Assembly (NCBI RefSeq): GCF_014201905.1
Contig: NZ_JACHFM010000001.1
Coordinates: 186,001 to 250,000 of the forward strand
Direction: 5' to 3'
DNA length: 64,000 bases
Source: Amaricoccus macauensis
Lineage (GTDB): Bacteria > Pseudomonadota > Alphaproteobacteria > Rhodobacterales > Rhodobacteraceae
In this document: one piece after another, positions 11,641 through 47,626 of the stretch
How the letters are laid out: every line of letters begins with the position of its first letter
Position numbering within the stretch: the first letter of the stretch is position 1
Notes under the pieces: model-generated
The model's database searches: none
The model's input: the letters and a program-made list of their open reading frames with translations, nothing else
Told to the model about the DNA's origin: nothing
Translations under genes and position numbers: made by a program

Positions 11641-11851
11641 GCAGCGATCTCCTCGTCTGCGGCAATGTTCGCCCCGGGAAGGCGCCGGGTGCCGATGGGG
11701 ACCCTCGGCTCGCGTCCCGCCGGACGGACGGGGGGGCAGACGGGCGGGCGGCTGGGCGACTGGGCGACGATCGCGCGGCATGTGCCTCCCGCGTCGGCGA
11801 CCCTCTGGTCCCGCGCCTCGCTGGGGGCGCGTCTCGCGGTCGGCGGCGGCG

Positions 11852-12925
11852 TCACTGCCCCGCCTTCCGGGCCACGGTGACCCCGGTCCGCGCACCGTCG
11901 AGGCCGAGAAACGCGGCCGTGTCCGGGTCGAGGGGGATGCCGCCGCGCGCGCGCTCGGCCTCGACCCGCCACTCCCGGTCGCCGGGCGCCATCACCGTCT
12001 CGCCCGCCCGCGCCGGTGCGGCGCGCAGGGCGGCGAGGTAGGTTTGCATTCCCGCCTCGAACACCGCCTGCCCGCCGAAGCGGTCCGGATCGATCGCGAG
12101 AACGAAATGCCCCATGCCGCGCGGCGTCTTCATGTCGTCACCACCGACCATGCGGATCATTTCATGATCGGCGACGGCGCCTTGCAGGATTGCGGAAAAG
12201 ATCGTCGCGACCCCGGCGAGCGCCGCGCCCTTGAAGCCGAAGTCCGAGCCGCCGACCGGCAGCAGCATGCCGACCGCCTGTGGATCGGACGTCGGCACAC
12301 CGCCTTCGTCCGCCGCCACGTCTTCGGGCAGCGTCAGGCCGAGCGAGCGGAACAGGGAGACGCGATTGAACGGAATCGACGAGGTCGCCATGTCGAGAAG
12401 CCACGGCCGCGCCCCGCCACTCGGCGCGGCAAATGCGAGCGGGTTCGTGCCGTGGAACGCCGTCGCCCCGCCATGGGGTGCGACAATGCTGTCGGCGTTG
12501 GTGGTGACGAACCCCACCATTCCCGCCCGGGCCGCCTCGATCGCGTAAGCACCGGCCGCGCCGAAATGCGACGAGCGCACGACCCCGACGGCGCCGACGC
12601 CCGCCTCGCGCGCGAGCGCCACCGCCACATCCATCGCGCGATAGGCCGCATGGTGGCCGAGGCCGTCGCCGCCATCGACGACAGCGGCTGCGGCGGCGCG
12701 GCGCTCCACGCAGAGCTGCGGATCGCCCGCCAGCCGCCCGCTGCGCAGAACGGTGCAATAGTGTTCGACGAGCCGCGCCCCGTGGCTGTCCACGCCGATC
12801 CTGGAGGCATGCATCAGCGCCCGCACCGCCGATGCCGCGGACCCGGCCGACGCTCCCGCGTCGAGCAGCGCGCCGTTCAGGCGATCGGCGAGAACCTGCG
12901 CAGGGACCCTGATCGAGTCCTTCAT
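11852..12925 (-). CDS. Ldh family (malate/L-lactate dehydrogenase-type) oxidoreductase
   Basis: The 357-residue protein belongs to the non-Rossmann NAD(P)-dependent Ldh/sulfolactate dehydrogenase family. Visible motifs are SRIGVDSHGARLVEHY near residues 40-55, the catalytic-region VVRSSHFGAAGAYAI near 115, GTNPLAFA near 160 and the C-terminal ending of the family. Members reduce or oxidise 2-hydroxy/2-oxo acids or imines. The ATG at 12925 follows GGGGGAGG. It diverges from the GntR gene, with a putative operator between them. Confidence 0.9.
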   Translation of the reverse strand: MKDSIRVPAQVLADRLNGALLDAGASAGSAASAVRALMHASRIGVDSHGARLVEHYCTVLRSGRLAGDPQLCVERRAAAAAVVDGGDGLGHHAAYRAMDVAVALAREAGVGAVGVVRSSHFGAAGAYAIEAARAGMVGFVTTNADSIVAPHGGATAFHGTNPLAFAAPSGGARPWLLDMATSSIPFNRVSLFRSLGLTLPEDVAADEGGVPTSDPQAVGMLLPVGGSDFGFKGAALAGVATIFSAILQGAVADHEMIRMVGGDDMKTPRGMGHFVLAIDPDRFGGQAVFEAGMQTYLAALRAAPARAGETVMAPGDREWRVEAERARGGIPLDPDTAAFLGLDGARTGVTVARKAGQ

Positions 12926-25422: not shown

Positions 25423-26478
25423 ATGGCCAGCCCACGACCCCTGGTCGCGGATAGAACCTATCTGAGGCATTTCTGGCATCCGGTCTGCACGGTTGCCGAA
25501 CTTGACAGAGCCGGGCCATCCGGCACCGGACCGCTTGGCGTCACTCTCCTCGACCAGCCGCTCGTCATCGCAAGGCTCGACGGCAAGTTCGTCGCGATGG
25601 ACGATCGCTGCGCCCACAGGTTCGCCAAGTTGTCGGCCGGAAAGGTCATTGATGGCAAGGTGCTGCAATGTCCCTATCACGGTTGGCAATACAATGACGC
25701 CGGTCGCTGCGTGCGGATGCCTGCCTGCCCGAAGGAAGCCATTCCGGCGAAGGCGCTGACCAGAGCCTATGCCTGCGCGGAACGCTACGGCATCGTCTGG
25801 GTGAGGCTCGATTCCTCCTGGGACTGCACCGAGATCCCCTATTGCGGCGCCTGGGACGACCCCGAGCTCAAGCGTGTGATCGTCGCCGATCCCTACGACT
25901 GGGGCAGCTCCGCCGAACGCCGCTGGGAGAACTTCACCGACTTCTCCCACTTCGCCTATGTCCATCCCGGCACGCTCTATGACCCGGCCTACGCCGAGCC
26001 CGCCATCGTGCCCACCGACCGGGTCGGCGGCGAGCTGCGCTTCTACATGGAGCCGGGCAAGGAAATGCTGGGCTCGTTGCCGCCTGACAGCCCGCTCGGC
26101 TCATTCAACTACCGCACATCCATGCCGTTCGCGATCAACCTCAGCATCCGTCTCTACCGCGACGACAGCCAATTCCTGCTGTGGACCGCGTCGAGCCCGG
26201 TCAGCGAGAACACCTGCCGCAACTTCATGATCATCGCTCACGCGGACCCGGACCTCGACGACGAGGTCCCGCTGAACTTCCAGAAAGTCGTCCTGATGGA
26301 AGACCAGCCGATCATCGAGACCCAGCCGGGACCGCTGTCGCTCGAGGAAATCTCGCTGCCCACCGACAAGATCTCGAACCAGTATCGCAAGTGGCATCGC
26401 GAGCTCTCCGCGGCCGCCGTGAACGGAGCCGACGCGTTCCGCGCCGCGCTGCTGACCGACATTCTCGAAAGCGCGTGA
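25423..26478 (+). CDS. Rieske non-heme iron oxygenase, NdmA/NdmB/HpxD-like
   Basis: The 351-residue alpha-type oxygenase has a Rieske [2Fe-2S] site (Cys63-x-His65, Cys83-x2-His86 in QCPYHGWQY) and a mononuclear iron site in ENFTDFSHFAYVH (Asp173, His176, His181 in the D-x2-H-x4-H pattern). Its start (YLRHFWHPVCTVAELDRA) and KISNQYRKWHREL near the end resemble, from memory, caffeine N-demethylases NdmA/NdmB, and more loosely HpxD of hypoxanthine oxidation. It would hydroxylate an N-methyl group or ring carbon of a purine, using electrons from the reductase at 28581. The ATG at 25423 follows GGAGCGAGCACA. It is the first gene of a five-gene operon. Confidence 0.85.
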   Translation: MASPRPLVADRTYLRHFWHPVCTVAELDRAGPSGTGPLGVTLLDQPLVIARLDGKFVAMDDRCAHRFAKLSAGKVIDGKVLQCPYHGWQYNDAGRCVRMPACPKEAIPAKALTRAYACAERYGIVWVRLDSSWDCTEIPYCGAWDDPELKRVIVADPYDWGSSAERRWENFTDFSHFAYVHPGTLYDPAYAEPAIVPTDRVGGELRFYMEPGKEMLGSLPPDSPLGSFNYRTSMPFAINLSIRLYRDDSQFLLWTASSPVSENTCRNFMIIAHADPDLDDEVPLNFQKVVLMEDQPIIETQPGPLSLEEISLPTDKISNQYRKWHRELSAAAVNGADAFRAALLTDILESA

Positions 26479-26486
26479 CGAGCCTC

Positions 26487-27329
26487 ATGGATGCCCGCAA
26501 CGACAAGGCGGTCTGGAACTGCTGGTATCCGATCGGCTCGCCGATCGACCTGCGCCGGCAGCGACGGACCCGCACCACGCTGCTCGACCGCGACGTTTCG
26601 CTGACGATCCATCAGACCTGGATCGCGGCGGAAAGCGGCGGCCGGCAGCTGCCGACGCTTGAACGGCTCGGCTATGTCTGGACGACGCTGGGCGAGCCGG
26701 CCGGACTGCCGCCTTCGTTGATCGAGTACTATGAAGTCGACCGCCTCGCCATGAACGTATGGTCGACGCCGCTGAAATGCTCGGGCCTGCGCGTCATCGA
26801 CAACGTCATCGACAACGCGCACTACGCCTTCCTGCATCCGGGCATCCTGGGAGATCGGGAGCACCCCGACCTGCCGCCCTACGAGGCGGCGACGGAGGAA
26901 AACGGTGAACTCTGGTCCCGGAGCCACCGCGCCTACCTGCCGATCACCGGTGAGATCGCGGAATACACCTACCGCCTCCCCAATCCGTATTCGGTCGTCC
27001 TCGGCATCCACCGCCCGACCGAAGCCGGCGAGACCCCGCGCTACGACTACCTCGGTGTCTTCTGCCAGCCGACTTCGGAGGAGAGCTTCATCGCTCACAA
27101 GATGCTGGCGTGGATCAGGGAAGACTGGATGGACGAGAAGCGACTCCGCTCGGACCAGCAATGGATCTCGGCACAGGACAAGTACGCGCTCGAGCGCCAC
27201 ACCGACAAGAAGCTGCCGCTCGACGAGGCCACGGAAGCCTCGACCGCTCTCGATCGGGCTTCGCTCGACTATCGCGCGTGGCTGCGGCGCAAGGATGTGC
27301 GGTACGGCGCGTCGCGGAGGGCGGCATGA
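26487..27329 (+). CDS. Rieske-less oxygenase catalytic subunit, NdmC-like
   Basis: The 280-residue protein keeps the flanks of a Rieske fold (NCWYPIGS; LLDRDVSLTI; LERLGYVWTTLGEP) but lacks both cluster-binding loops: there is no C-x-H or C-x2-H pair. The catalytic domain is intact, with SGLRVIDNVIDNAHYAFLH giving Asp109, His112 and His117. This matches NdmC, the N7-demethylase subunit that has no Rieske centre and borrows electrons from a partner. The C-terminal YRAWLRRKDVRYG also resembles it. ATG 26487 or an overlapping GTG at 26475 is the start. It follows directly on the first oxygenase and overlaps the Rieske-only gene by ATGA. Confidence 0.8.
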   Translation: MDARNDKAVWNCWYPIGSPIDLRRQRRTRTTLLDRDVSLTIHQTWIAAESGGRQLPTLERLGYVWTTLGEPAGLPPSLIEYYEVDRLAMNVWSTPLKCSGLRVIDNVIDNAHYAFLHPGILGDREHPDLPPYEAATEENGELWSRSHRAYLPITGEIAEYTYRLPNPYSVVLGIHRPTEAGETPRYDYLGVFCQPTSEESFIAHKMLAWIREDWMDEKRLRSDQQWISAQDKYALERHTDKKLPLDEATEASTALDRASLDYRAWLRRKDVRYGASRRAA

Positions 27330-27937
27330 CGGCGACGGTTGCCATCGGAACGCAGCCCGTTGCGCTGGAGCGTGACGTCCGCGCCGCGAGCCTCGTGCGC
27401 AGCGCCCTCGGCGACATGCCTCTGGTGCTCTGGCGTTGCGACCAGGGCGAGATCCACGTCTGGGAGGACAACTGTCCCCACCGCAGCGTGCGGCTCAGCG
27501 CCGGCCGCAATCTCGGGGACTGTCTCGAGGACATCTATCACGGATGGCGCTTCGGCCGGGACGGTGCCCTGATCTCGATCCACGCCGCGAAGGGCAAGGA
27601 ACTGCCGCGCATCAGCGCGCGCGTTCTCCCGGTCGCGACGGGCTCCGGCCTGGTCTGGGCCGGTGCCGGAAACCAAGCCGTCCCGCCGACGGACTTCGCG
27701 ATCACCGCGGGCGAAGTCGTGATGCGTCCGCTGCCCTTCTCGGTGGGTGCCGCGAGCGTCGCCGCCGCCTGCGCCGGACTGGAAGGGCTGCGCATCCTCG
27801 TCAGCCCCACCGGGCGGACCAGCGCCACCGCCTACGGTTTCGTGCGCCGCCGGCAGGCGGAAAGCGACGCCGACGCGGCCCGGCGCGCCAATGCAACCCT
27901 GTCCGCCGCGCGGCGCAAACTGGAGGCGGCCGCGTGA
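27326..27937 (+). CDS. Free-standing Rieske-domain protein with an altered ligand (NdmD N-half-like)
   Basis: The 203-residue protein is a Rieske domain plus a C-terminal segment ending in a helical, charged tail. The first cluster loop is NCPHRSVRLS (Cys50, His52). The second reads CLEDIYHGWRF: His72 is kept, but the Cys expected two residues before the Tyr-His is Asp69; Cys66 lies three residues earlier. Overall the protein resembles the N-terminal part of NdmD, the caffeine demethylase reductase, including its linker. It may supply the Rieske centre missing from the preceding NdmC-like protein, with an altered or absent cluster. ATG 27326 follows GGAGG and overlaps the previous stop. Confidence 0.78.
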   Translation: MTATVAIGTQPVALERDVRAASLVRSALGDMPLVLWRCDQGEIHVWEDNCPHRSVRLSAGRNLGDCLEDIYHGWRFGRDGALISIHAAKGKELPRISARVLPVATGSGLVWAGAGNQAVPPTDFAITAGEVVMRPLPFSVGAASVAAACAGLEGLRILVSPTGRTSATAYGFVRRRQAESDADAARRANATLSAARRKLEAAA

Positions 27938-28584
27938 TAACGCTCTTCGACTACGCCCTCTCTGGCAACTGCTTCAAGGTGAGGCTGCTGCTCAACTGGC
28001 TTGGTCTCGCCCATGAGGTGAAGCCGGTCGACTTCTATCCGGGGTTCGAGCATCGGTCCGACGCCTTTCTGACGATCAACCCGCTTGGGCAACTCCCGGT
28101 GATCGAGGATGACGGCGAGATCATCCGCGACGCGCAGGCGATCCTCGTCCATCTGGCCGCGCGATACGATCCGCGCGGACACTGGTATCCCCTCGATGAG
28201 CCGCACCGCCTCGGGCCGATCCAGACCTGGCTCGCCTTTGCCGACGCGCTCACGGCGACGATCTCGGCCGCCCGGCAGCACGACGCGATGTTCTTTGACC
28301 TCGACATCGCGAGCGCCCGGGCCGGCGGCCATCGTCTGCTGCGCATTCTCGACGAACATCTCTGGTTCGCCGAGCTGGAGGGCCACGACTGGATTTGCCC
28401 CGGCGACCGTCCCACCGTCGCCGACATCGCCTGCTTCCCCTACGTGGCCCTCTCCGAAGAGGGCGGCATCTCGCAGGCCGACTATCCGGCGGTCCTGCGG
28501 TGGGTCGATCGCTTCACGCGGCTGAAAGGCTTTCAACCAATGGCCGGCATGTTGCCGCTGCCGCTCGCAGGAGCCGCGACATGA
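27934..28584 (+). CDS. Glutathione S-transferase family protein, NdmE-like
   Basis: The 216-residue protein has a thioredoxin-like N-terminal domain (FDYALSGNCFKVRLLLNWLG; INPLGQLPVIEDDGEIIRDA, with the cis-Pro and the glutathione-binding Asp-type region) and an all-helical C-terminal domain containing RPTVADIACFPYVAL. In caffeine-degrading pseudomonads a GST homologue, NdmE, holds NdmC and NdmD together; the neighbours here make the same structural role likely. The start is GTG at 27934, four bases inside the preceding gene, behind TGGAGGCG. It ends by ATGA overlap with the reductase. Confidence 0.85.
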   Translation: MITLFDYALSGNCFKVRLLLNWLGLAHEVKPVDFYPGFEHRSDAFLTINPLGQLPVIEDDGEIIRDAQAILVHLAARYDPRGHWYPLDEPHRLGPIQTWLAFADALTATISAARQHDAMFFDLDIASARAGGHRLLRILDEHLWFAELEGHDWICPGDRPTVADIACFPYVALSEEGGISQADYPAVLRWVDRFTRLKGFQPMAGMLPLPLAGAAT

Positions 28585-29528
28585 CGCGCGAAGTCGTCGT
28601 TGCAGACCTTTGGGACGAAACGCCGGATGTGCGCTGCTTCGAGCTGCGTCCGGTCGAACCCCTGCCGCTGCCGCCGGCCGAACCCGGCGCGCACATCGAC
28701 GTCCATGTGGGGCCGTCGCTCGTTCGCCAGTACTCGCTGTGGAACGGACCGGCGGAAGCCGGCGCCTACTTCATCGGCGTGAAACGCGAACCGCGCTCCC
28801 GCGGCGGCTCCGTGGCGATGCACGGCCTCACCATCGGCAGTCGGCTGACCATCAGTCCACCGCGCAACAACTTCCGCCTCGCGGCGAACGACGCTCCGGC
28901 GCTGCTCCTCGCCGGTGGGATCGGCATCACGCCGCTGCTCGCCATGGCAAGGCACCTCGATGCCAACAAGATGCCGTTCCAGCTGCATCTCTTCAGCCGC
29001 AGCCGCGAGCTCGCGCCATTCGTCTCGACGCTGGCGGGCCTTGCCCACGCGCGCGTCCATTGCGGTGTGCTCCCGCCCACGCTCGACGGCCTGCTCACCG
29101 GCCTTCTGGCGGCCCATAGCCGGCAGACCCACGTCTACATCTGCGGACCCGCTCCGTTCATGGAACTCGCCGCCCGACTCGCTGCCGGGCAGGACTTGCC
29201 GCCGGACAATGTCCACCTGGAATACTTCGCAGCGGAGCAGCCGGCGCTTGACGCCTCAGCATTGAGTTTCGATGTCGAGGCCCGACAATCCGGGATCACC
29301 GTCACTGTCGCGCCGCATCAGACGATCGCCCAGGCCCTGATCGATGCCGGGGTCGATCTTCTCACATCATGCGAACAGGGCGTGTGCGGAACCTGTGCCA
29401 CCGCGGTTCTGGAAGGCGAGCCCGATCACCGCGACCAGTATCTCAATCGCATGGAACATGCTTCCGGCAAGATCATGACGCCGTGCGTATCGCGCTGCAA
29501 GGGCGCCCGCCTGGTGCTCGATATCTGA
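28581..29528 (+). CDS. Oxygenase reductase (FMN, NADH, plant-type [2Fe-2S]), NdmD C-half-like
   Basis: The 315-residue protein has the phthalate-dioxygenase-reductase order: flavin-binding RQYSLWNG near residue 51, VKREPRSRGGS, nucleotide-binding LLLAGGIGITP near 110, and a C-terminal ferredoxin domain with CEQGVCGTC (Cys264, 269, 272) and a final Cys near 303 in MTPCVSRCKG. It passes electrons from NADH to the Rieske centres. Compared with NdmD it lacks the N-terminal Rieske domain, which is encoded two genes upstream. ATGA overlap with the GST gene shows tight coupling. The operon ends here, facing the LysR gene. Confidence 0.92.
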   Translation: MTREVVVADLWDETPDVRCFELRPVEPLPLPPAEPGAHIDVHVGPSLVRQYSLWNGPAEAGAYFIGVKREPRSRGGSVAMHGLTIGSRLTISPPRNNFRLAANDAPALLLAGGIGITPLLAMARHLDANKMPFQLHLFSRSRELAPFVSTLAGLAHARVHCGVLPPTLDGLLTGLLAAHSRQTHVYICGPAPFMELAARLAAGQDLPPDNVHLEYFAAEQPALDASALSFDVEARQSGITVTVAPHQTIAQALIDAGVDLLTSCEQGVCGTCATAVLEGEPDHRDQYLNRMEHASGKIMTPCVSRCKGARLVLDI

Positions 29529-29549: not shown

Positions 29550-30500
29550 TCATGCCTCCTGTGCGAGCCTGGGCCTGATCAGCGAGTAGCCCGGATCACG
29601 GATGAAGTCGTCGAAGCGCTGGCAGAGCGTGTCGACGAACTTCATGATCCGCGGATTGCGGTGCCGCTGCGCCGGGTAGATCGCATAGGCATGCGTCGTC
29701 TCTGACCGCCACTCGGGAAGAACCGGAACCAGCGCGCCGAGCTCCAGTTCGTGCTGGACAAAGAAGTCCGGAAGATAGCCCAGCGCGGACCCCTGAACGA
29801 CGAACGTCTTGCCCATCCAGTACTCATTGACATTGAACTTCGCGTGAGGCCGTGCCTCGACCGCACGGGACGCCTGGCGCAGCGTCCACTTCTCCGGCGT
29901 GCCGTTTCTCGAATAGATGACCCCGCTCAGGCCATCCACGTCCTCGATCCTGGCGGGGACGCCGTGCCGGCGCAGGAAGACCGGGCTGGCGTAGAGACCG
30001 TAGGACACGCTTCCCAGCTTGCGTCTGAGCAGGCTTGAATCGGATGGCTCACCGATGAAGATCAGGCAGTCATAGTCGATCTGACCGGTGAGTATCTGGT
30101 CTGTGGAGTAAAGCTGCAGATCAAAGTCGATCTCCGGGTTCTCGGCAGAAAAGTGGAGCGCCGCCGCACCAAGCATCAGCGTCCCGAACTCGGCGCTGGA
30201 AGCAACCCGGATGCGGCCCCGAATGGTGGAGTGGGCGCGCTGCGCGGCGCTGACCGCGGTCTCGCAACTGTCGAAGATCGCGCCGCAGTTCTCCAGGAAC
30301 TCCTTGCCCGCATCCGTCAGCTCGAGGCCCCGCGCCTTGCGGACGAACAGCTCGACCTTCAGCGCGTCCTCGAGCCGCCGCAGATAGAGGCTGAGCGTGG
30401 CCTTGGGCACATTGTAGATGGCCGCGGCATTGGAAATGCTGCCGGCCCGCGCGATCTGCTGGAACGCGTTGATGTCGCCAAGCTCGTATGGGTAGCTCAT
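29550..30500 (-). CDS. LysR family transcriptional regulator
   Basis: The 316-residue protein has an N-terminal winged helix (FQQIARAGSISNAAAIYNVPKATLSLYLRRLED; LFVRKARGLELTDAG) and a two-lobed periplasmic-binding-protein-like effector domain. It is convergent with the oxygenase operon and divergent from the purine permease, so it probably controls one or both in response to a purine. The role resembles HpxR in hypoxanthine clusters, but this is inferred from position. The ATG at 30500 was chosen over long upstream extensions because it begins the helix-turn-helix domain correctly. Confidence 0.92.
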   Translation of the reverse strand: MSYPYELGDINAFQQIARAGSISNAAAIYNVPKATLSLYLRRLEDALKVELFVRKARGLELTDAGKEFLENCGAIFDSCETAVSAAQRAHSTIRGRIRVASSAEFGTLMLGAAALHFSAENPEIDFDLQLYSTDQILTGQIDYDCLIFIGEPSDSSLLRRKLGSVSYGLYASPVFLRRHGVPARIEDVDGLSGVIYSRNGTPEKWTLRQASRAVEARPHAKFNVNEYWMGKTFVVQGSALGYLPDFFVQHELELGALVPVLPEWRSETTHAYAIYPAQRHRNPRIMKFVDTLCQRFDDFIRDPGYSLIRPRLAQEA

Positions 30501-30514
30501 CGAAACCCGACCCT

Positions 30515-30538
30515 GTCCGTTCAGAATTCTGGACGGAC
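30515..30538. promoter_or_regulatory. 24-bp interrupted palindrome upstream of lysR
   Basis: GTCCG-N2-CAGAATTCTG-N2-CGGAC is symmetrical over 24 bp, ending 15 bases before the LysR start codon on the other strand. It is the best operator candidate in the gap between LysR and the permease, perhaps for autoregulation. Confidence 0.5.
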
Positions 30539-30895: not shown

Positions 30896-32833
30896 ATGAG
30901 ACACCAGATGACCATGACAACAGCCTCCCCGACGCCGGTTCGCGCGCATCCAGTCGACGAAATTCTGCCGGTATCCCAGCTCGCCACCTACGGCCTCCAG
31001 CATGTTCTGGCCTTCTATGCCGGGGCGATCCTCACGCCGATCATTCTCGCAGGAGCCCTCGGCCTCACGAACGAGCAGTTGATCCATCTCATCAACGCTG
31101 ACTTGTTCACATGCGGCATCGCCACGCTGCTGCAGTCGGTAGGCATCGGCCGGATCGGCGTGCGGCTGCCGCTCCTGCAAGGCGTTACCATCACCGCGGT
31201 CGGGCCGATGGTCGCCATCGGCCTCGACGCGGGCGGCGGTGTCGACGGCCTGCTCGCAATCTACGGCTCGGTGATCGTCGCTGGCGTGTTCACCTTTGTC
31301 ATGGCCTCCTACGTCAAGCCGCTGATGCGCTTCTTCCCGCCCGTCGTGGTCGGCTCGGTCATCCTGATCATAGGCATCGGCCTGCTGCCGGTTGCTGCCA
31401 ACTACATCGTCATGGGCAGTGGCCTCAACGCCATGCAGAACCCCGTCCTGCTGAAGAACGTGATGTACGGACTGAGCGTGCTCGCGCTCATCGTCGCCAT
31501 CCAGCGCTTCTTCTCGGGCTTCATGCAGACGATTGCCGTGCTGGTCGGGCTCGTGGTCGGCACCGTGGTCGCCTGGGCGCTCGGTGACGCGCATTTCGGC
31601 GAGGTCTCGACCGCGCCATGGGTCGGCTACACCACGCCCTTCTACTTCGGATGGCCGACCTTCGGTCTGACCGCCATTCTGTCGATGCTGGTGGTGATGG
31701 TCATCACCATGATCGAGACCGCCGGTGACGTCTATGCCACCGGCGAAATCGTCAAGAAACGCATCCGCAACGAGGATATCGCCCGCGCCATTCGTGCTGA
31801 CGGTCTGGCGACGTTCATCGGCGGCATCCTCAACGCCTTCCCCTACACCTGCTTCGCCCAGAACGTCGGACTGGTCCGGCTGACCCAGATCCGGAGCCGA
31901 TGGGTCGTGGCGGCGGCGGGCGTCATCATGATCCTGCTCGGCTCGTTGCCGAAAGTGGCGGCGATCGTGGCCGGCATTCCGGCTCCCGTCCTCGGCGGGG
32001 CTGCTCTCGCCATGTTCGGTGCCGTCGCCGCCGTCGGCGTGCAGACGCTCGGAAAGGTCGATTTCAACAACCAGAACAATGTCGTCGTCGTCTCGATCAG
32101 CGTCGGCCTTGCAATGCTGGTGACCGCGCAGCCCTTCATCGGCGACGCTTTCCCGGAATGGGCGCGCATCGTCCTCGGCAGCGGCATCATCCTCGGCGCC
32201 TTGTCGGCAATCCTGCTCAACATGCTCTTCAACTCGTTCGGCTCCGGCACCGCGGCGGTGGCGGGCCGGCCCGGCGATCACCTTGTCACCATCGCCGACG
32301 TCAACCGGATGAACGAGGCCGAGTTCTGCATGACCTTCGGCGGGCTCGTGGAGAATACCCCATGGGTCATCGAGCGTGCCTTCCGGATGCGGCCCTTTGC
32401 CGACACTCTGGAGCTGCGCTCGGCCTTCCAGAACGCGCTCCTCGCCGGAACCTCCGAAGAACATCACCAGTTGCTCAACTCCTTCGCCGATCTCGGCACG
32501 GACGCCGATGCCGAGACCGCCTATCTCTTCGACCATGCGAACGCCGGTATCGACGAGCTCGACGCCGACGAGCATGACGCAGTGCGCCACCTGGCGAAGG
32601 CCTATCGCGACCACTTCGGCTTCCCGCTGATCGTTTCGGCCGGGGACGTCGAGCGCTACGAACGGGTCGTGTCGAGCGGGCGTGCGCGGCTGTCGAACAC
32701 ACCCGCGGTCGAACGCTCCACCGCGCTGGTGGAGATCGCGCGCATCGCCAACCATCGCTTCGACCGGCTGGTCGCCAACGCCAACCCGCACGCAAGTGCG
32801 TTTGTGCCGACCTTCATGCCCCAGCCTGCCTGA
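30896..32833 (+). CDS. NAT/NCS2 purine permease fused to an OHCU-decarboxylase-like domain
   Basis: Residues 1 to about 460 form a nucleobase-ascorbate transporter with QHVLAFYAGAILTPIILAGAL near the start and the NAT signature QNVGLVRLT beginning at 322, the type seen in urate/xanthine transporters. Residues about 470-640 match 2-oxo-4-hydroxy-4-carboxy-5-ureidoimidazoline decarboxylase (UraD), with NTPWVIERAF, FGFPLIVSAG and EIARIANHRFDRLV. In UraD the catalytic His sits in HPDL; here that place reads FADL (Phe530). The catalytic Glu of the following EQ pair is Asp546-His. The domain may therefore be inactive and serve binding or control. ATG 30896 or 30908 is the start. Confidence 0.85.
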   Translation: MRHQMTMTTASPTPVRAHPVDEILPVSQLATYGLQHVLAFYAGAILTPIILAGALGLTNEQLIHLINADLFTCGIATLLQSVGIGRIGVRLPLLQGVTITAVGPMVAIGLDAGGGVDGLLAIYGSVIVAGVFTFVMASYVKPLMRFFPPVVVGSVILIIGIGLLPVAANYIVMGSGLNAMQNPVLLKNVMYGLSVLALIVAIQRFFSGFMQTIAVLVGLVVGTVVAWALGDAHFGEVSTAPWVGYTTPFYFGWPTFGLTAILSMLVVMVITMIETAGDVYATGEIVKKRIRNEDIARAIRADGLATFIGGILNAFPYTCFAQNVGLVRLTQIRSRWVVAAAGVIMILLGSLPKVAAIVAGIPAPVLGGAALAMFGAVAAVGVQTLGKVDFNNQNNVVVVSISVGLAMLVTAQPFIGDAFPEWARIVLGSGIILGALSAILLNMLFNSFGSGTAAVAGRPGDHLVTIADVNRMNEAEFCMTFGGLVENTPWVIERAFRMRPFADTLELRSAFQNALLAGTSEEHHQLLNSFADLGTDADAETAYLFDHANAGIDELDADEHDAVRHLAKAYRDHFGFPLIVSAGDVERYERVVSSGRARLSNTPAVERSTALVEIARIANHRFDRLVANANPHASAFVPTFMPQPA

Positions 32834-36541: not shown

Positions 36542-37618
36542 TCAGCTCTGAACGCCGGCCACGTACCAGTCGAGGGCGAGCAGGGTCGGATCATCGAGCG
36601 CCGAGCCGAGAGGCACCTTTTCCGTCCCGTTCTGATCGACGATCGGCCCGGAGAAGATCTTGACCGAGCCGTCCGCCTGACCGTCACGCATGGCCTCGGC
36701 GGCTTTCACCACCTCGGGCGGGATCCGCTCGTTCCACGGCGCCATCCGCACCATGTCTTCCTTCAGGCCGGCCCAGACCGATCCGGTCTTCCAGGTGCCG
36801 TCGATCACCGCCTGAATGCGCTCGATGTAGTAGCCGCCCCAGTGGTTTTCGATCGCGGTCAGATGCGCCTTGGGCGCGAAGGACGACATGTCCCACGCCT
36901 GCCCGAACGCCATCAGGCCGCGCTGCTCGGCCGCCTGCAACGGCGCGGGCGAGTCGGTGTGCTGCGACAGGATGTCGGCGCCCTGATCGAAGAGCGCCTT
37001 CGCCGCGTCGGCTTCCTTCGCCGGATCGTACCAGCTCGACACCCACACGACCTTGGTCTGGAACGCCGGATTCACCTTCTGCGCCGCCAGCGTGAAGGCG
37101 TTGATCCCCATCACCACTTCCGGGATCGGGAACGACGCGACATAGCCGCCGATGCCGGTCTTCGACATGTGCCCGGCGATGGTGCCGCAGACCGCCCGGC
37201 CCTCGTAGAAGCGGGCGTTGTAGGTCGCGATGTTCGCCGCCGTCTGATAGCCGGTGCAGTGCTCGAACATCACGTCCGGATAGCGCTTGGCCACCTTCAC
37301 GGTCGGGTTCATGAAGCCGAACGACGTGGCGAAGATCAGCTTGTTGCCGTCATCGGCGAGATTCTTCAGCACCCGCTCCGCGTCCGGCCCCTCGGCGACG
37401 TTCTCGACATAGGTCGTCACGACGTTCTCGCCGAAGTGCGCCTGCGCCTCCTTGCGCCCTTGCTCGTGCGCGAAGGTGAAGCCGAAGTCCCCGACAGGTC
37501 CGACGTAGATGAAGGCGACCTTCAGCGGCTCGGCCGCGAAGGCCCGCCCGGCGAAGGGAAGCGTCGCGGCAGCCGCGCCGCCGGCCTTGAGAAGACCCCT
37601 CCGGGTGATGAGCGTCAT
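36542..37618 (-). CDS. BMP family ABC transporter substrate-binding protein (nucleoside/purine)
   Basis: The 358-residue protein has a Tat-like signal ([20 protein letters not shown]) followed by [20 protein letters not shown], the BMP/Med family opening, and [32 protein letters not shown] and [18 protein letters not shown]-type binding proteins capture nucleosides or purines in the periplasm. It lies 26 bases after the second permease gene, completing an ATPase-permease-permease-BMP system. The operon context with xdhABC and azgA favours a purine or purine nucleoside as ligand. Confidence 0.92.
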
Positions 37619-37644
37619 GACTCTGGTAGTCTCCCTGTTGTTGT

Positions 37645-38568
37645 TCACGTGCTCGGCCGGAAGGGCTGGCCAAGACACGCCGGAGCCGCCGAGCCGACCG
37701 ACCTGCGCGACGAGATGAGCGCGAGCACGAGGATCGTCGCAAGGTAGGGCAGAGCTGCGAGGAACTCCGGTGGCACAATGTTGAGGCCCGCCGCCTTGGC
37801 GTGCAACTCGAAAGTCATCACTGCACCAAAGAGATAGGCCCCCGCCAGCAGTCTCCACGGGCGCCAGGCTGAAAAGACGACGAGCGCGAGGGCGATCCAG
37901 CCGCGCCCCGCGGTCAGTTCGTCCGCCCACATGGGCGTCTGAACCATCGAATAGTAGCAACCGGCCAGCCCCGCCATGGCGCCGCCGAAGGCAACTGCAG
38001 CATATCGCACAGTTGTCACTGAGTAGCCGATCGAATGCGCCGAGTGGTCGTTCTCACCCACCGCGCGGAGAATCAGTCCTCCCCGGGAGCGGGTGAGAAA
38101 CCACGCGACCGCCGCGGTCATGACGAGCGAGACATAGACGAGGATCGAGTGCCCGAAGACCAGCCGGAGCAGCGGATCCTCCGCGAGTGCCGCGGGGAAC
38201 ACCGGCCCCAGCGGCGCGATCGTCAGGCCGACGAAGCTCTCGCCGATCATCGACGACAGGCCGATGCCGAAGATCGTCAGCGCGAGCCCGGTCGCCACCT
38301 GGTTCGACGCGAGCGAGATCGTCAGCACCCCGAAGATCATCGAGGCACCCACCGCCGCCGCCATCGCGGCCAGGAGGCCGAGCAGATGCATCCCCGTCGA
38401 CGAGGTGACCGCGAAGCCCGTCACCGCGCCCACCAGCATCATCCCCTCGATCCCGAGGTTCAGCACACCGCTCTTCTCCGCCACCAGCTCGCCCAGCGCC
38501 GCGAGCAGCAGCGGCGTGGCCGCGCCGATCACCGTCATCAGGATAGAGACCGCCATCGCCTCGGTCAT
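37645..38568 (-). CDS. Nucleoside-type ABC transporter permease (second subunit)
   Basis: The 307-residue membrane protein has the BPD_transp_2 signature AEKSGVLNLGIEGMMLVGAV near residues 30-50 and about eight hydrophobic segments, followed by SLASNQVATGLALTIFGIG. In nucleoside transporters (YufQ/NupC-type naming varies) this subunit forms the channel with the gene at 38565. ATG 38568 overlaps the upstream permease stop by ATGA. Confidence 0.92.
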   Translation of the reverse strand: MTEAMAVSILMTVIGAATPLLLAALGELVAEKSGVLNLGIEGMMLVGAVTGFAVTSSTGMHLLGLLAAMAAAVGASMIFGVLTISLASNQVATGLALTIFGIGLSSMIGESFVGLTIAPLGPVFPAALAEDPLLRLVFGHSILVYVSLVMTAAVAWFLTRSRGGLILRAVGENDHSAHSIGYSVTTVRYAAVAFGGAMAGLAGCYYSMVQTPMWADELTAGRGWIALALVVFSAWRPWRLLAGAYLFGAVMTFELHAKAAGLNIVPPEFLAALPYLATILVLALISSRRSVGSAAPACLGQPFRPST

Positions 38569-39626
38569 TCCGTCACCCTCCGCCGGAGCCGGAGCCGCCA
38601 GCCGACGAGCACATCGGCCGCAAGCAGGAAGAACAGCATCATCGACTGAAAGACCCCGGTCGCCGCCGAGGGCAGGCCGAGCGAGGACTGCGACGCCTCG
38701 CCGCCCACGTAGGTCACGGCGAGGATGATCCCCGCCGCGAGGATCCCGAGCGGATGCAGCCGCCCGAGAAACGCTACGATGATCGCGGTGAAGCCGTAGC
38801 CGGTCGGAAACGCCGGCACCATCTGCCCGAACGGCCCCGCCGCCTCGAAGAGCCCGGCGAGCCCCGCCAGACCGCCGCCTGCGAGCAGCGCCAGCCAGAT
38901 CGTCCGGCGCTGGCTGAACCCGCCATAGCGCGCCGCCATCGGCGCTGCCCCCACCACACGGATCTGGAAGCCGAGCATGGTCCTCGCCATCAGGAACCAG
39001 ACGACGAGCGAGATCACCAGCGCCAGCGGCACATTCAGATAGCCGATCCCCGAGAGGTACGGCAGCATCTGCGCGTCGGTGAAGATCCGCGTCTGGGGAA
39101 AGTTGAACCCGTCGGGATCCTTCCACGGCCCGTTCACCATGTAGTAGAGCAGCTGCACCGCCACATAGGTGAGCATCAGGCTGGACAGGATCTCGTTCAC
39201 GTTGAAGCGGGTGCGCAGCAGCGCCGGGATCCCCGCCCACGCCATGCCGGCGAGCGCGCCGGCGATGCACATGAGCGGCAGGATCCACCAGCCGGTCATC
39301 TCCCATGTGGCGAGCGCGACGCCCGTGCCGGCGAGACCGCCCACCACGTACTGCCCTTCGGCGCCGATGTTCCAGACGTTCGCCCGGAAGCCGATCGCGA
39401 GGCCGGTGGCGATCATCACCAGCGGCGCCGCCTTCAGCCCGAGGTCCTGCCACTTGCGCAGGGTGATCAGCGGATCGATGAAGATCGCGCGCACCGCCGC
39501 GAAGCCGTCGTAGCCGAGCGCCGAGAAGACCAGCCCTCCCACCACCATCGTCGCCAGCACCGCGAGGACCGGCGCCAGCCAGATCATCGTCCGGCTCGGC
39601 ACCTTGCGTCGTTCGAGCTCAAGCAC
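38565..39626 (-). CDS. Nucleoside-type ABC transporter permease (first subunit)
   Basis: The 353-residue membrane protein contains GLAIGFRANVWNIGAEGQYVVGG, the permease motif of BPD_transp_2 transporters, then TRFNVNEILSSLMLTYVAVQ and GYGFTAIIVAFLGRLHPLGI, the cytoplasmic coupling region. The start is GTG at 39626, overlapping the ATPase stop by eight bases behind GGGAGGCGGA; an upstream ATG at 39674 would overlap more. Confidence 0.92.
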   Translation of the reverse strand: MLELERRKVPSRTMIWLAPVLAVLATMVVGGLVFSALGYDGFAAVRAIFIDPLITLRKWQDLGLKAAPLVMIATGLAIGFRANVWNIGAEGQYVVGGLAGTGVALATWEMTGWWILPLMCIAGALAGMAWAGIPALLRTRFNVNEILSSLMLTYVAVQLLYYMVNGPWKDPDGFNFPQTRIFTDAQMLPYLSGIGYLNVPLALVISLVVWFLMARTMLGFQIRVVGAAPMAARYGGFSQRRTIWLALLAGGGLAGLAGLFEAAGPFGQMVPAFPTGYGFTAIIVAFLGRLHPLGILAAGIILAVTYVGGEASQSSLGLPSAATGVFQSMMLFFLLAADVLVGWRLRLRRRVTE

Positions 39627-41181
39627 GCTCCGCCTCCCGCTCCGCCGCGTTCTCTCCGCCCGCGTGCTCGCCATGCACCCCGCCCATCAGCAGGCCGATC
39701 TCGTCGCGGGAAATCTCGCCCACCGACCGCTTCGGCGAAAGGCGCCCTTCGTTGATCACCGCGAGCGAGTCCGAGATCGCCAGCAGTTCGTCCAGATCCT
39801 GACTGACCACCACGATCGCCGAGCCGCGCGCCGCGAGGTCGACCAGCGCCTGATGGATCGCCGCCGCGGCGCCCGCATCGACGCCCCAGGTCGGTTGCGA
39901 CACCACCAGCACCTCCGGCACCTGCAACACCTCGCGCCCCATGATGAACTTCTGGAGATTGCCGCCCGAGAGCGCGCCCGCCATCGCCTGCGGCCCGGTC
40001 GCCCGCACCCCGAACCTGGCGATCACCTCTTCCGCATAGCCGCGCGCCACCGCTCCGAGGATCACCCCGTGGCGCACCATGCCCTTGCGATACCGCGCGG
40101 TCAGGACGGCATTCTCGGCCAACGTGAAGCCCGGCACCGCCGCATGGCCGTTCCTCTCCTCCGGCACCGCCGCGAGCCCGCGCCGCCGCCGCCGCGCGAT
40201 CGGCAGCGTGCCGACCGGCGCCCCGTCGAGGCGCACCGCGCCCGCGTTCGCCACCGGCGTCTCGCCGGAGAGCGCCAGCATCAGCTCGTTCTGGCCATTG
40301 CCCGCGACTCCGGCGATGCCGAGGATCTCGCCCGCCCGTACCGAGAAGGAGACGTCGCGGAGCGCCACGTCGAAGTCGCCGCCGCCCGCCAGGGTCAGGC
40401 GATCGACCACCAGCTTCTCCGGCCCGAAGCCCTTCGCCGCGGCCTTGCGCACGTCCTTGAGGCTGCCGCCGATCATCATCTCCGCCATGGAGCGCGGCGT
40501 CTCCTGCGCCGGCACGCAGGTGCCGACGACCTTGCCGCCCCGCATGATCGTCGCCGCGTCGCAGAGCACGCGGATCTCGTGAAGCTTGTGGCTGATGTAG
40601 AGAACCGAGCAGCCGCCGGCCGCAAGTGCCCGCAGCGTCTCGAAAAGCTGCGCCACCTCCTGCGGCGTCAGCACGCTCGTCGGCTCGTCCATGATGAGCA
40701 GCCGCGGCTCAAGCAACAGCGCCCGGACGATCTCGATGCGCTGCCGCTCGCCCACCGAGAGGGTCGAGACCGTGCGATGCGGATCGAGGCTCAGTCCGTA
40801 GCGCGCCAGCACCGCCCGGATCCGCCCCTCGAGCGCCGACGCGCTCAGCCGCTCGTCGAGGCCGAGCGCGATGTTCTCGAGCACGGTCATCGGCTCGAAC
40901 AGCGAGAAGTGCTGAAACACCATGCCGATGCCCATGGCGCGCGCCGCCCGGGGACTGGCGATCCGGACCGGCGTCCCGTCAACGACGATCTCGCCGTCGT
41001 CCGGGTGCTGCACGCCGTAGATCATCTTGACGAGCGTCGACTTGCCCGCGCCGTTCTCCCCGAGCAGCGCGTGCAGTTCGCCCGGCCGCACCCGGAAGCT
41101 CACGCGGTCGTTCGCGAGCACCCCGGGAAAGGCCTTGGTCACGTTCCGAAGCTCGAGACGATCGGCGCTGGCGTCTGTCAT
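39619..41181 (-). CDS. Nucleoside-type ABC transporter ATP-binding protein (double ABC)
   Basis: The 520-residue protein holds two ABC domains, as in sugar and nucleoside importers. The first has Walker A GENGAGKST near residues 41-49, signature LSVGERQR near 145 and Walker B LLIMDEPTS near 165. The second has the degenerate P-loop GVAGNGQNEL near 290, LSGGNLQK near 400 and LVVSQPTWGVD. It powers the uptake system encoded downstream. The ATG at 41181 follows the azgA stop by 28 bases. Confidence 0.94.
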   Translation of the reverse strand: MTDASADRLELRNVTKAFPGVLANDRVSFRVRPGELHALLGENGAGKSTLVKMIYGVQHPDDGEIVVDGTPVRIASPRAARAMGIGMVFQHFSLFEPMTVLENIALGLDERLSASALEGRIRAVLARYGLSLDPHRTVSTLSVGERQRIEIVRALLLEPRLLIMDEPTSVLTPQEVAQLFETLRALAAGGCSVLYISHKLHEIRVLCDAATIMRGGKVVGTCVPAQETPRSMAEMMIGGSLKDVRKAAAKGFGPEKLVVDRLTLAGGGDFDVALRDVSFSVRAGEILGIAGVAGNGQNELMLALSGETPVANAGAVRLDGAPVGTLPIARRRRRGLAAVPEERNGHAAVPGFTLAENAVLTARYRKGMVRHGVILGAVARGYAEEVIARFGVRATGPQAMAGALSGGNLQKFIMGREVLQVPEVLVVSQPTWGVDAGAAAAIHQALVDLAARGSAIVVVSQDLDELLAISDSLAVINEGRLSPKRSVGEISRDEIGLLMGGVHGEHAGGENAAEREAERA

Positions 41182-41209
41182 CGTCGGGCTCCGTCGGTCA
41201 GGTTGCAGA

Positions 41210-42511
41210 CTACTCCGGGAAGAACGCGAAGCGGATCAGGAATAGCGCAGCCACGAGCCAGGTTGCCATATGAACTTCACGCGCCCGGCCCGTCGCCGCC
41301 TTGATGATGGCGTAGCTGATGAAACCGAACGCAAGCCCGTTGGCGATCGAGTAGGTAAACGGCATCATCAGCGCGGTGAGCGCCGCGGGCGCCGCGTCGG
41401 TGATGTCGTCCCAGTTCACGTCCACCAGCTCGCGCATCATGAGACAGGCGACGTAGAGCAGCGCCGGCGCCGTGGCGAAGGCCGGCACCGAGCCCGCGAG
41501 GGGCGCGAAGAAGAGCGCGAGCAGGAAGAGCACCGCCACCGTCACCGCCGTCAGGCCGGTCCGGCCGCCCGCGAGCACGCCCGAGGCGCTCTCCACATAG
41601 GCGGTGGTCGACGAAGTGCCGAGCATCGAGCCCGCGACGATCGCCGTCGAGTCCGAGAGCAGCGCCTTGCCGAGCTGCGGGTTGGTGTGTCCCGGCCCGT
41701 CATTCAGCAGACCCGCGCGCTTGGCGACGCCGATCAGCGTGCCGGTCGCGTCGAACACCTCGACGAGCACGAAGGTCAGGACCACGTGCAGGATGCCCGC
41801 GGAGAACGCGCCGACGATGTCGAGTTGCAGGAAGGTCGGGGCGATCGACGGCGGCGGCGACATGATCCCGCCGAACGGGCTGATGCCCGACACCATGGCG
41901 ACAACGGTGATGACGAGGATGCCGATGAGGATCGCGCCCTTCACCTTCAGCGCGTCGAGCGCCGCGATCAGGAAGAAGCCGATCATCGCGAGCATCGCCG
42001 GCGGCGAGCGCATGTCACCGAGCGCGACGAACGTCGCCTCGCTTGCCACGACCACGCCCGCGCTCTTCAGCGCGATGATGCCGAGGAACATGCCGATACC
42101 CGCCGCAACGGCGCTCCGCATCGAGTGCGGGATGCCCTCGACCAGCCAGCGCCGCACGCCGGTCACGGTGAGGAGGAGGAAGATGCAGCCCGAGATGAAG
42201 ACCGCGCCCAGCGCCTGTTGCCAGGTGAAGCCCATGGCTCCGACCACGCCGAAGGCGAAGAAGGCGTTCAGCCCCATGCCCGGCGCCATGGCGATCGGCC
42301 AGTTCGCATAGAACCCCATGATCAGCGATCCGAGAGCCGCCGCGAGACAGGTCGCGACAAACACCGCGCTTTGGTCCATGCCGGTCGTCGACAGGATCTG
42401 CGGGTTCACGAAGATGATGTAGGCCATCGTCAGGAAGGTGGTGATCCCCGCCACCAGTTCCGTGCGCACGTTCGTGCCGTGCGCCTTCAGTCCGAATAGA
42501 CTGTCGAGCAT
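41210..42511 (-). CDS. AzgA-type NCS2 purine permease
   Basis: The 433-residue protein begins LDSLFGLKAHGTNVRTELVAG, the AzgA-family opening, and has about twelve membrane segments with MAYIIFVNPQIL, APGMGLNAFFAF and LFDATGTLIGVAK-like FDATGTLIGVAKRAGLL. AzgA members import adenine, guanine or hypoxanthine with protons. The ATG at 42511 follows GAGGA at 42516-42520. It is preceded by three tandem hairpin units and follows xdhC, so purine supply and oxidation are co-expressed. Confidence 0.92.
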   Translation of the reverse strand: MLDSLFGLKAHGTNVRTELVAGITTFLTMAYIIFVNPQILSTTGMDQSAVFVATCLAAALGSLIMGFYANWPIAMAPGMGLNAFFAFGVVGAMGFTWQQALGAVFISGCIFLLLTVTGVRRWLVEGIPHSMRSAVAAGIGMFLGIIALKSAGVVVASEATFVALGDMRSPPAMLAMIGFFLIAALDALKVKGAILIGILVITVVAMVSGISPFGGIMSPPPSIAPTFLQLDIVGAFSAGILHVVLTFVLVEVFDATGTLIGVAKRAGLLNDGPGHTNPQLGKALLSDSTAIVAGSMLGTSSTTAYVESASGVLAGGRTGLTAVTVAVLFLLALFFAPLAGSVPAFATAPALLYVACLMMRELVDVNWDDITDAAPAALTALMMPFTYSIANGLAFGFISYAIIKAATGRAREVHMATWLVAALFLIRFAFFPE

Positions 42512-42519
42512 GCTGTCCT

Positions 42520-42692
42520 CACTGTCTGTTACCGCGCTATTCCCTTGCCGGAATGGTCGCGCCCTCACGGAAATCTCTCTCGCGTCTGTCACCGCGCCCA
42601 CGCCTTCAATCGGAGCGGACGCGCCATCACATCAAATCTTCAACGTCTGTTACCGCGTTCGTTCCGCGAGCCGGAGCGCACGCGCCATCGCT
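42520..42692 (-). ncRNA. Three tandem hairpin units upstream of azgA, candidate purine-sensing RNA
   Basis: Read on the minus strand, three units of about 61 bases occupy 42645-42689, 42584-42628 and 42524-42566. Each begins KGGCGCG and ends GCGCGGTRACAGAC. Between these, the middle can pair in every copy with different bases: TCCG/CGGA, CCGC-x-CC/GG-x-GTGG and ATTCC/GGAAT. This is compensatory change. Short flanks may also pair around the GGTRACAGA side, giving two helices and an asymmetric internal loop. The last unit ends four bases before the azgA ribosome binding site. The architecture and purine context recall the xanthine-I (NMT1) riboswitch class, which I cannot confirm. Confidence 0.55.
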
Positions 42693-43508
42693 TCAAACCC
42701 TCAGCGGCGCCCGCATCACGAGTGCCGCCAGTATTTCTGTCGCGACGAATGCCGCGATCACCTCGGGCCGCTTGTCAGGCCGTCCGGCCGCGCCGATCGG
42801 TGAGACCAGTGACTCGGGCGATGGCGGATCCTCGGTGCGGGCGAGCCAGCGCTCGAACGTCACCCGCTTGGTCTTGGAGCCGATCATGCCGACATAGGCC
42901 GCGTCCCCCCGCGCCAGCGCCTCGCGCGCGATCAGGAAATCGAGCGCGTGGTCGTGGGTCAGGATGACGAAGGCGCTGCCCGGCGGAGCCGTCGCCACCT
43001 CGGCCTCGGGGATCGCGGTCATCACCGCCTCGACCCGTGGCGGCGCAAGCGCGATTTCCTCCGGCCGCTGGTCGATCAGAACCGGCCGCACCGGCAGAAG
43101 CGCCAGCGCCGCTGCCAGCGCCCGCCCAACGTGGCCGGCTCCGAAGATCAGCACCGCCGGCAGGGCGCGATACTCCCGCTCGGCCATGGCCGCGAGCGCC
43201 TCCCATCCCGCGTCGTCGAGCCGCGTGCAGGTGAGCACCGTCCGGCCGCCGCAGCACTGGCCGATCTCCGGCCCGAGCGGGATGTCGAGAGTTTCGCTGT
43301 CGTCCCCGCGCGCCAGCATTGCCCGGGCAGCGTCGATCGCCATGTATTCGAGCTGACCGCCGCCGATCGTCCCGAGGATCGTGCCTTTCGTCACCACCAT
43401 CCACGCGCCGCTCTCCCGCGGCGTCGAGCCCCGGGCCTCAGCGACCTCGACCAGTGCCGCGACGGTCCGGGCCCGAAGCCCTGCGATCTCGTCGGGGCGG
43501 ACGGTCAT
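42693..43508 (-). CDS. xdhC: Xanthine dehydrogenase accessory protein XdhC
   Basis: The 271-residue protein has the XdhC/CoxI N-terminal domain (EARGSTPRESGAWMVVTKG; GTIGGGQLEYMAID; GQCCGGRT with the paired Cys) and a C-terminal Rossmann domain with VLIFGAGHVGRALAAALA and GMIGSKTKR. XdhC inserts the sulfurated molybdenum cofactor into XdhB. ATG 43508 overlaps the xdhB stop by ATGA. Confidence 0.95.
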   Translation of the reverse strand: MTVRPDEIAGLRARTVAALVEVAEARGSTPRESGAWMVVTKGTILGTIGGGQLEYMAIDAARAMLARGDDSETLDIPLGPEIGQCCGGRTVLTCTRLDDAGWEALAAMAEREYRALPAVLIFGAGHVGRALAAALALLPVRPVLIDQRPEEIALAPPRVEAVMTAIPEAEVATAPPGSAFVILTHDHALDFLIAREALARGDAAYVGMIGSKTKRVTFERWLARTEDPPSPESLVSPIGAAGRPDKRPEVIAAFVATEILAALVMRAPLRV

Positions 43509-47304: not shown

Positions 47305-47626
47305 GCTAGAGCCTCCTTGCAACCAGCGGGCACCATCCGGCGTGAGCGCGGGAACCGGTGCGAATCAATCAACTGCCGAAATCCGGAGGCCCGCAACACG
47401 GAACCCGACGCGACGCTGGAATGAGCGTCACTGTAACGAGCCTGCGCGCACGCCGAACCGGCGCCAAAGGCGCTTTTCCAGATATCTGCCATATGTCCAA
47501 AACTCCCCGAGCGATCTTGCCGTCGCCGTCAAACCAAGCAATCTTGGCAGAAGACCGCCGGAACAGAACCCCGCCAATGCGGAGGACTGCTTCAAAGATA
47601 TTTTGAAAATGGGGCGAGAAAAATGC
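47305..47626. other. Promoter region of the xdh operon
   Basis: These 322 bases lie upstream of xdhA. An inverted repeat TTCAAA-N5-TTTGAA sits at 47591-47607 in an AT-richer stretch and could bind a regulator. A 63-codon minus-strand frame (47301-47492) has a fair ribosome binding site but no recognisable content. Confidence 0.45.

Follow-up and report, generated by a model that had tools for sequence, protein, structure and literature searches.

How can an oxygenase without a Rieske domain be supplied with electrons when the Rieske protein encoded beside it has lost a cluster ligand? The question is raised by five consecutive plus-strand genes, A to E, which form one tight operon at positions 25423-29528 of a 64-kb stretch of Amaricoccus macauensis DNA (the window; contig C1:186001-250000) and whose products are related to the NdmA-E methylxanthine demethylase components of Pseudomonas. 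An original prediction had proposed five overlapping or near-adjacent genes of a rearranged caffeine-demethylase-like operon with a free Rieske domain and an NdmD cut in two, and both coordinates and Pfam families confirm the five genes. Gene A (25423..26478, 351 amino acids) encodes a full Rieske oxygenase of the NdmB (N3-demethylase) type with an intact CAHR...CPYHGW motif and Rieske plus VanA_C domains. It is followed after 8 bp by gene B (26487..27329, 280 amino acids), encoding a Rieske-less oxygenase of an NdmC-related clade with VanA_C alone. Genes C, D and E each overlap the preceding gene by 4 bp and encode a degenerate Rieske protein with a Rieske domain alone (27326..27937, 203 amino acids), a glutathione S-transferase (GST)-like protein of the NdmE group with GST domains and a GTG start (27934..28584, 216 amino acids), and a reductase with NAD-binding and plant-type [2Fe-2S] (Fer2) domains and no Rieske domain (28581..29528, 315 amino acids). 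Chance open reading frames were rejected on the basis of family matches and conserved gene order, the order recurring on a Komagataeibacter plasmid and in 8 of 36 NdmA/B loci.

The explanation put forward here, held with moderate confidence, is that this is a methylxanthine N-demethylase operon, carried by a member of Rhodobacteraceae, in which C would be a structural pseudo-subunit and B would be active via a Rieske centre in trans. Gene order, protein families, the lost ligand, the conserved iron ligands, the purifying selection and the co-occurrence of genes are observed; the folds used in this explanation are model-predicted, and the substrate, the ring pairing and the electron donor are what we infer.

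Metal sites of the B and C proteins

Alignment of C with free and fused Rieske parts showed that C50 (27473), H52 (27479) and H72 (27539) are kept and that position 69 (27530-27532) is Asp where the others have Cys, so that C does not have the full set of two Cys and two His ligands of the Rieske family. In a census of C-type proteins the second Cys was missing from all 12 rows (10 distinct records, as loci L070 and L128 repeat L032), with Gly in ten and Asp in two, the window and L039. Every comparison row in which the motif could be read kept this Cys (67 of 67): 42 were classed as free, including three full-length oxygenases from L068 and L069, and 25 were fused, with several rows duplicating a record or strain. 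Four rows in which the motif was missing were excluded, namely three reductases and a Rieske ferredoxin (L041) that reads CPFHGW and keeps the Cys too. A search of 385 genomes of the class, of which 35 match at E 1e-12, led to 30 loci including the window's own. The Rieske rows from this search, which stand outside the census, keep the Cys in 30 of 30 cases from 29 loci, and no further C-type protein was found among these 29 other loci (30 rows). The three remaining ligands are kept in all eight aligned C-type rows. C-type rows form one clade (6 rows, support 100/99) whose stem measures 2.45 changes per column, and the ratio of nonsynonymous to synonymous substitution (dN/dS) of C is 0.12-0.17 in three closer pairs, with 0.14-0.15 for C2, the Rieske protein of a second gene trio on the Komagataeibacter plasmid. 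Judged from these sequence comparisons, purifying selection maintains C in some role other than that of a standard Rieske protein, and a standard Rieske cluster is not expected in it; with the second Cys absent throughout the C type, the free Rieske domain initially assigned to it does not stand. Sequencing error was rejected as the cause of the missing Cys given its absence in 12 of 12 rows and 10 distinct records with two different residues, and a pseudogene was rejected given the open frame and the dN/dS in closer pairs. No description of a degenerate Rieske partner or of this operon was found in the open-access literature searched.

The iron site of B is conserved: D109, H112, H117 and D231 (codon starts 26811, 26820, 26835 and 27177) are, together with N106, invariant in 42 of 42 Rieske-less rows, and the iron ligands are present in nine of nine rows of the B clade. 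This clade (9 rows, 100/100) stands apart from the Pseudomonas-type NdmC clade (8 rows, 100/99), joins the alphaproteobacterial trio oxygenases weakly (83/80) and has a long stem of 1.75 changes per column. The NdmC of strain CBB5 was represented by a stand-in, Pp_C; it shares 94% identity with the NdmC of Pseudomonas sp. S37, for which ndmA-E are listed at E 0 (PMC8055839). B thus has the iron ligands and the lack of a Rieske domain expected of NdmC but does not group with Pseudomonas NdmC as represented by Pp_C. The dN/dS of B is 0.06-0.10 in three closer pairs, with 0.08-0.09 for B2, the oxygenase of the second plasmid trio. A search for B-type proteins in 390 genomes of the order gave 24 matching genomes including the window's own, among which only the Paracoccus versutus protein is B-type (64% identity), the rest matching at 30-37%. 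B keeps its iron ligands beside a partner without a full set of cluster ligands, and would thus need electrons from elsewhere.

Models of both proteins were generated with AlphaFold2, with a predicted local distance difference test (pLDDT) score of 93.4 for C and 84.9 for B. Among Protein Data Bank (PDB) chains both fit best on SxtT, C with Z 18.2 and a root mean square deviation (rmsd) of 2.3 over 194 of 203 residues (chain range 10-288) and B with Z 28.5 and rmsd 2.7 over 265 of 280 residues (chain range 2-334), followed for B and C alike by other Rieske oxygenases including NdmA and NdmB. On these models C looks like a Rieske domain with a shrunken C-terminal remnant of the catalytic domain devoid of iron ligands, and B like a catalytic domain with a shrunken Rieske domain. 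Profile comparison gives modest agreement: the B and C families match where the Rieske fold begins (42 columns, E 6.7e-6, probability 85%), and hhalign related the region after the Rieske domain in fused NdmD and in free Rieske proteins to the catalytic core of B/NdmC (64 columns, E 2.6e-4, probability 42%). The models suggest that B and C are two complementary copies of a whole oxygenase subunit, B minus the cluster-binding part and C minus the iron site.

Oxygenase A, gene order and the purine neighbourhood

When A was compared with PDB chains it matched NdmB over near its full length with 450 bits, followed by NdmA chains (418 and 414), SxtDIOX (119), SxtT (113) and the dicamba demethylase DdmC (71 bits). 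VanA-type clustering, which would have spoken against the proposed Ndm relation, was thus not seen (71 bits for DdmC versus 450 for NdmB; VanA proper lay outside the tree, and the Pfam name VanA_C covers both). The relation itself was borne out, A being nearest to NdmB and B, C and D having their nearest kin among homologues of NdmC, the NdmD Rieske part and NdmE. A has the F-Q-xxx-L of NdmB (6icl) in place of the F-N-xxx-F of wild-type NdmA (6ick), and 6icp, a chain titled 'NdmA QL mutant', carries the same Q and L as A and NdmB. These residues of A (Q287, 26281-26283; L291, 26293-26295) sit at the places of NdmA 282 and 286, which we take to set specificity; 6icp and 6icq are both 'NdmA QL mutant' entries. 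In a tree of 56 rows (49 open reading frames from genome-scan loci and 7 references), 17 N/F rows and one 99-residue fragment without the motif formed an 18-row group (100/100), and A fell among the remaining 38 Q/L rows. Its clade there has 14 rows (100/99), largely from Alphaproteobacteria but including two metagenome-assembled genomes (MAGs) labelled gammaproteobacterial. A is accordingly placed in the NdmB clade and predicted to be an N3-demethylase, and its NdmB-type specificity residues add to the good support for a methylxanthine substrate. The window's genome yielded no NdmA-type enzyme, as PF19112, the domain of these oxygenases, matches only A, B and the oxygenase of a second cluster described below.

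A search of plasmids identified the same five genes in the order A-B-C-D-E on pKNA08, a Komagataeibacter nataicola plasmid whose source was a kombucha culture (L020), with identities to the window of 72.6% for A, 64.4% for B, 54.5% for C (over half of C), 60% for D and 50.3% for E. The pKNA08 operon is followed by the second Rieske-oxygenase-GST trio (C2, B2, D2) and, 4.4 kb further, by an NdmA-type gene scoring 559 bits to NdmA and 427 to NdmB. A genome scan yielded 38 loci, two of which (L068, L069) hold distant oxygenases; the other 36 come from somewhat fewer genomes. The order A-B-C-D-E is present in eight of the 36 (L032-L039), from P. versutus, Paracoccus sp. MKU1, Pseudooceanicola nitratireducens, K. 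intermedius, Gluconobacter potus, P. shandongensis, P. onubensis and a Rhodobacteraceae MAG. The K. intermedius strain is TF2, presumably from kombucha. Kombucha is a reported source of the species (PMC6528568). With the same order in Paracoccus, Pseudooceanicola, Komagataeibacter and Gluconobacter, the arrangement is not a rearrangement peculiar to the window. Operon proteins of L020, L032, L035 and L036 are 94-100% identical between Paracoccus, Komagataeibacter and Gluconobacter, and the L020 plasmid is typed as conjugative with Tn3, IS3 and IS5 genes nearby, making recent transfer of the operon between these genera likely.

Among the other loci, two (L040, L041; Aestuariivita MAGs) have A-B-E without C and D, E overlapping B, and in all 11 relatives' loci with B (L020, L032-L041) it lies directly 3' of A. 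Two have A without B: in L042 a 2-oxoglutarate/iron oxygenase gene (11059-12039) follows the NdmB-type gene, with no relative of B, C, D or E in the stretch examined, and in L043 a lone plant-type ferredoxin of 103 amino acids (11121-11432) stands in place of the reductase. Three betaproteobacterial loci (L044, L045, L051) arrange the split set differently, as Rieske, NdmC-like, reductase, GST and NdmB, and so represent a split NdmD outside Alphaproteobacteria. Fused NdmD occurs in 16 loci, one of them cut by a contig end. One locus has free reductases without NdmC (L060), one has neither (L062), and three have an NdmA-type oxygenase alone (L064, L065, L067), L064 and L067 coming from the strains of L033 and L034. 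Elsewhere, Sinorhizobium loci L026 and L027 have two tandem Rieske-less oxygenase genes before fused NdmD and GST, and a Klebsiella pneumoniae plasmid (L024) has an NdmB-, NdmC-, NdmD- and NdmE-like set between IS genes.

D belongs to a 12-row set with NdmE homologues (98/98) and, like NdmE, is GST-like and encoded with NdmC and NdmD relatives. The three NdmD parts (Rieske, flavin/NAD and ferredoxin) are not on one chain here, C and E being two genes with D between them. In the reductase tree, in which the named outgroup did not form one side of a branch, ten fused NdmD C-halves formed one clade (96/95) nested among free reductases, and fusion therefore looks derived. The ten fused Rieske parts likewise formed a clade (89/86), in a tree with an unresolved backbone. 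Another 22 genomes of the order each contributed one locus with NdmC-like genes (L071-L092); a free Rieske gene was nearby in 16, fused NdmD in two and neither, within 1.5 kb flanks, in four. That the free proteins are older than fused NdmD is the simpler reading, though it is not proof. The cutting in two of NdmD, as first envisaged, is probably the wrong way round, given this nesting and the intact split set elsewhere in the genome.

Downstream of E is a minus-strand gene for a LysR-type regulator (29550..30515), relatives of which (48-54% identical) adjoin related operons in L037-L041. It is followed on the plus strand by an NCS2 xanthine permease fused to an OHCU decarboxylase domain of urate breakdown (30896..32833), which unites xanthine uptake and urate breakdown in one protein. 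A purine island at 36542-47322 contains BMP-type transporter genes, a second NCS2 permease (41210-42601), XdhC and xanthine dehydrogenase genes. With these permeases, XdhC and xanthine dehydrogenase nearby, the neighbourhood is one of purine use. No purine riboswitch was detected in the window, where Rfam at the gathering threshold gave only a tRNA (967-1040). The methylxanthine substrate of the original prediction thus gains support from the clade of A, the purine context and the sources of the relatives, and it is still the substrate that we infer.

Electron supply and competing explanations

A possible donor is encoded in a second cluster about 103 kb beyond gene E (C1:318352-321515; L030 5353-8516), comprising a four-ligand Rieske protein, an NdmC-like oxygenase, a GST and its own reductase. 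It is flanked by a divergent LysR gene and a BMP-type ABC transporter (L030 616-5350) and has a close relative in L091. An intact free Rieske protein is present wherever B occurs (12 of 12, including the window's genome). In the proposed mechanism E, with NADH, flavin and plant-type [2Fe-2S], would pass electrons to A's own Rieske cluster as the NdmD ferredoxin domain does to NdmA. B, C and D are related to a trio resembling NdmC, the NdmD Rieske part and NdmE, the oxygenase and Rieske protein of which probably pair as alpha and alpha' in one ring because they look like shrunken copies with complementary losses. In the second cluster and in C2-B2-D2, electrons would run from reductase to Rieske protein to oxygenase iron, with the GST holding the pair. 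C would have survived loss of the cluster ligand as a structural pseudo-subunit, and B most likely still oxidises a purine or methylxanthine, its putative donor in trans being A or the intact Rieske protein of the second cluster. An active B fed in this way is favoured because B is retained without C and D in L040 and L041. A wider view, offered tentatively as a possibility, is that NdmC-type systems are asymmetric Rieske oxygenases that arose by subunit duplication and complementary loss of metal centres, and that in the B-C branch the partner is now metal-free and B runs on electrons borrowed from A or from the Rieske protein of another system.

Several observations weigh against this explanation. 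The proximity of B to A and its co-occurrence with C2-type proteins do not separate the two candidate donors, and with its long stem B may have shifted in function. The B model is weak at 111-125 (pLDDT below 50), the stretch with both iron His, and the hhalign link of the post-Rieske part to the catalytic core is modest. The dN/dS of C goes up to 0.25-0.35 in distant pairs (E 0.27-0.34), where synonymous sites are nearly saturated. The Asp at position 69 in the window and in L039 might conceivably serve as an iron ligand, though Gly occupies this place in the other C-type rows. Finally, with no NdmA-type enzyme found in the genome, full caffeine breakdown is not expected by homology.

Unlikely, though to be taken seriously, is that B, C and D form a non-catalytic assembly or regulatory sub-complex for A, the iron of B being structural or used for substrate sensing. 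The lost ligand of C, the long stems of B and C and the presence of A without B, C and D in L043 are consistent with this, as is Komagataeibacter, whose NdmB-, NdmA- and NdmC-type enzymes would leave B unneeded for three N-demethylations. However, the four iron-site residues are invariant across the B clade, dN/dS of B is as low as that of the presumably catalytic B2, and B persists without C and D in L040 and L041.

It is rather improbable that the operon acts on another purine, such as hypoxanthine or a guanine derivative (the reaction of HpxD, for instance, is a hydroxylation). Trio homologues in rhizobia and Shinella adjoin guanine deaminase, amidohydrolase and BMP-type transporter genes, and the window has xanthine dehydrogenase, XdhC and the second NCS2 permease at 41-47 kb. 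Against this, A is in the NdmB clade with NdmB-type residues and a kombucha strain carries the same operon on a plasmid. Little credence is given to a C that remains the donor of B by binding a non-standard cluster or one metal ion with C50, H52, H72 and a fourth ligand: three of four ligands are retained and Asp occupies the fourth place in the window and L039, but Gly does so in 10 of 12 C-type rows, and the window and K. nataicola C proteins share only C50 as an aligned Cys. A classical NdmCDE-type N7-demethylase with C as working Rieske donor and NdmD simply cut in two is very improbable, for although B, C, D and E are homologous to NdmC, the NdmD N-part, NdmE and the NdmD C-part, the second Cys is absent throughout, B lies outside the Pseudomonas-type NdmC clade, fused NdmD is nested among free forms and an intact split set is present elsewhere in the genome.

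Significance and comparison with known systems

What makes this locus interesting is that the loss of a Rieske ligand is conserved and that NdmC-type systems can be viewed in terms of complementary losses. The NdmCDE complex is described as structurally unsolved (PMC13237722); should NdmC and the Rieske part of NdmD prove to be reduced versions of a single subunit, it could be modelled as an alpha/alpha' ring, which is directly testable. The degenerate C would be a natural knock-out of the Rieske centre within such a complex, and B a test of feeding a Rieske oxygenase across systems. The gene set also connects two groups, Rhodobacteraceae and the acetic acid bacteria, with the breakdown of methylxanthines when tea and cacao are fermented, and it provides new enzymes for 7-methylxanthine production. 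In keeping with the relatives found here, a table from a cacao-fermentation metagenome assigns methylxanthine N3-demethylase genes to Acetobacteraceae and Paracoccus (PMC12417404), so Ndm-type genes in these groups are already in print, gene anatomy not being among what that table gives.

The assemblies formed by NdmA and NdmB are alpha3 alpha'3, with the docking site of the NdmD ferredoxin domain lying at the boundary of the NdmA trimer (PMC12445004). Like NdmB and NdmA of Pseudomonas putida CBB5 (6icl, 6ick), A has an intact Rieske motif, with the Q/L of NdmB, but it is encoded with the free reductase E rather than a fused NdmD, and the next gene is a second oxygenase. SxtT and GxtA (6wn3, 6wnc) are the best PDB matches of B and C by sequence and fold, although those are one-chain enzymes with both centres. 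The chlorophyllide a oxygenase of Micromonas is also a Rieske oxygenase spread over two polypeptides, but its substrate is unrelated and its description, as far as it goes, mentions no lost Rieske ligand (PMC9615114). On pKNA08 the intact trio and the NdmA-type gene adjoin the operon, whereas in the window's genome the intact set is some 103 kb away with its own reductase and an NdmA type was not found. The closest parallel is the NdmC-NdmD-NdmE complex, in which GST-like NdmE is postulated to hold the pair (PMC4408171): both systems combine a Rieske-less oxygenase, a Rieske domain on another chain, a GST-like third partner and a reductase. NdmD is, however, one fused chain with an intact Rieske domain, whereas here C and E are separate, C is without the Cys ligand and B belongs to a clade of its own.

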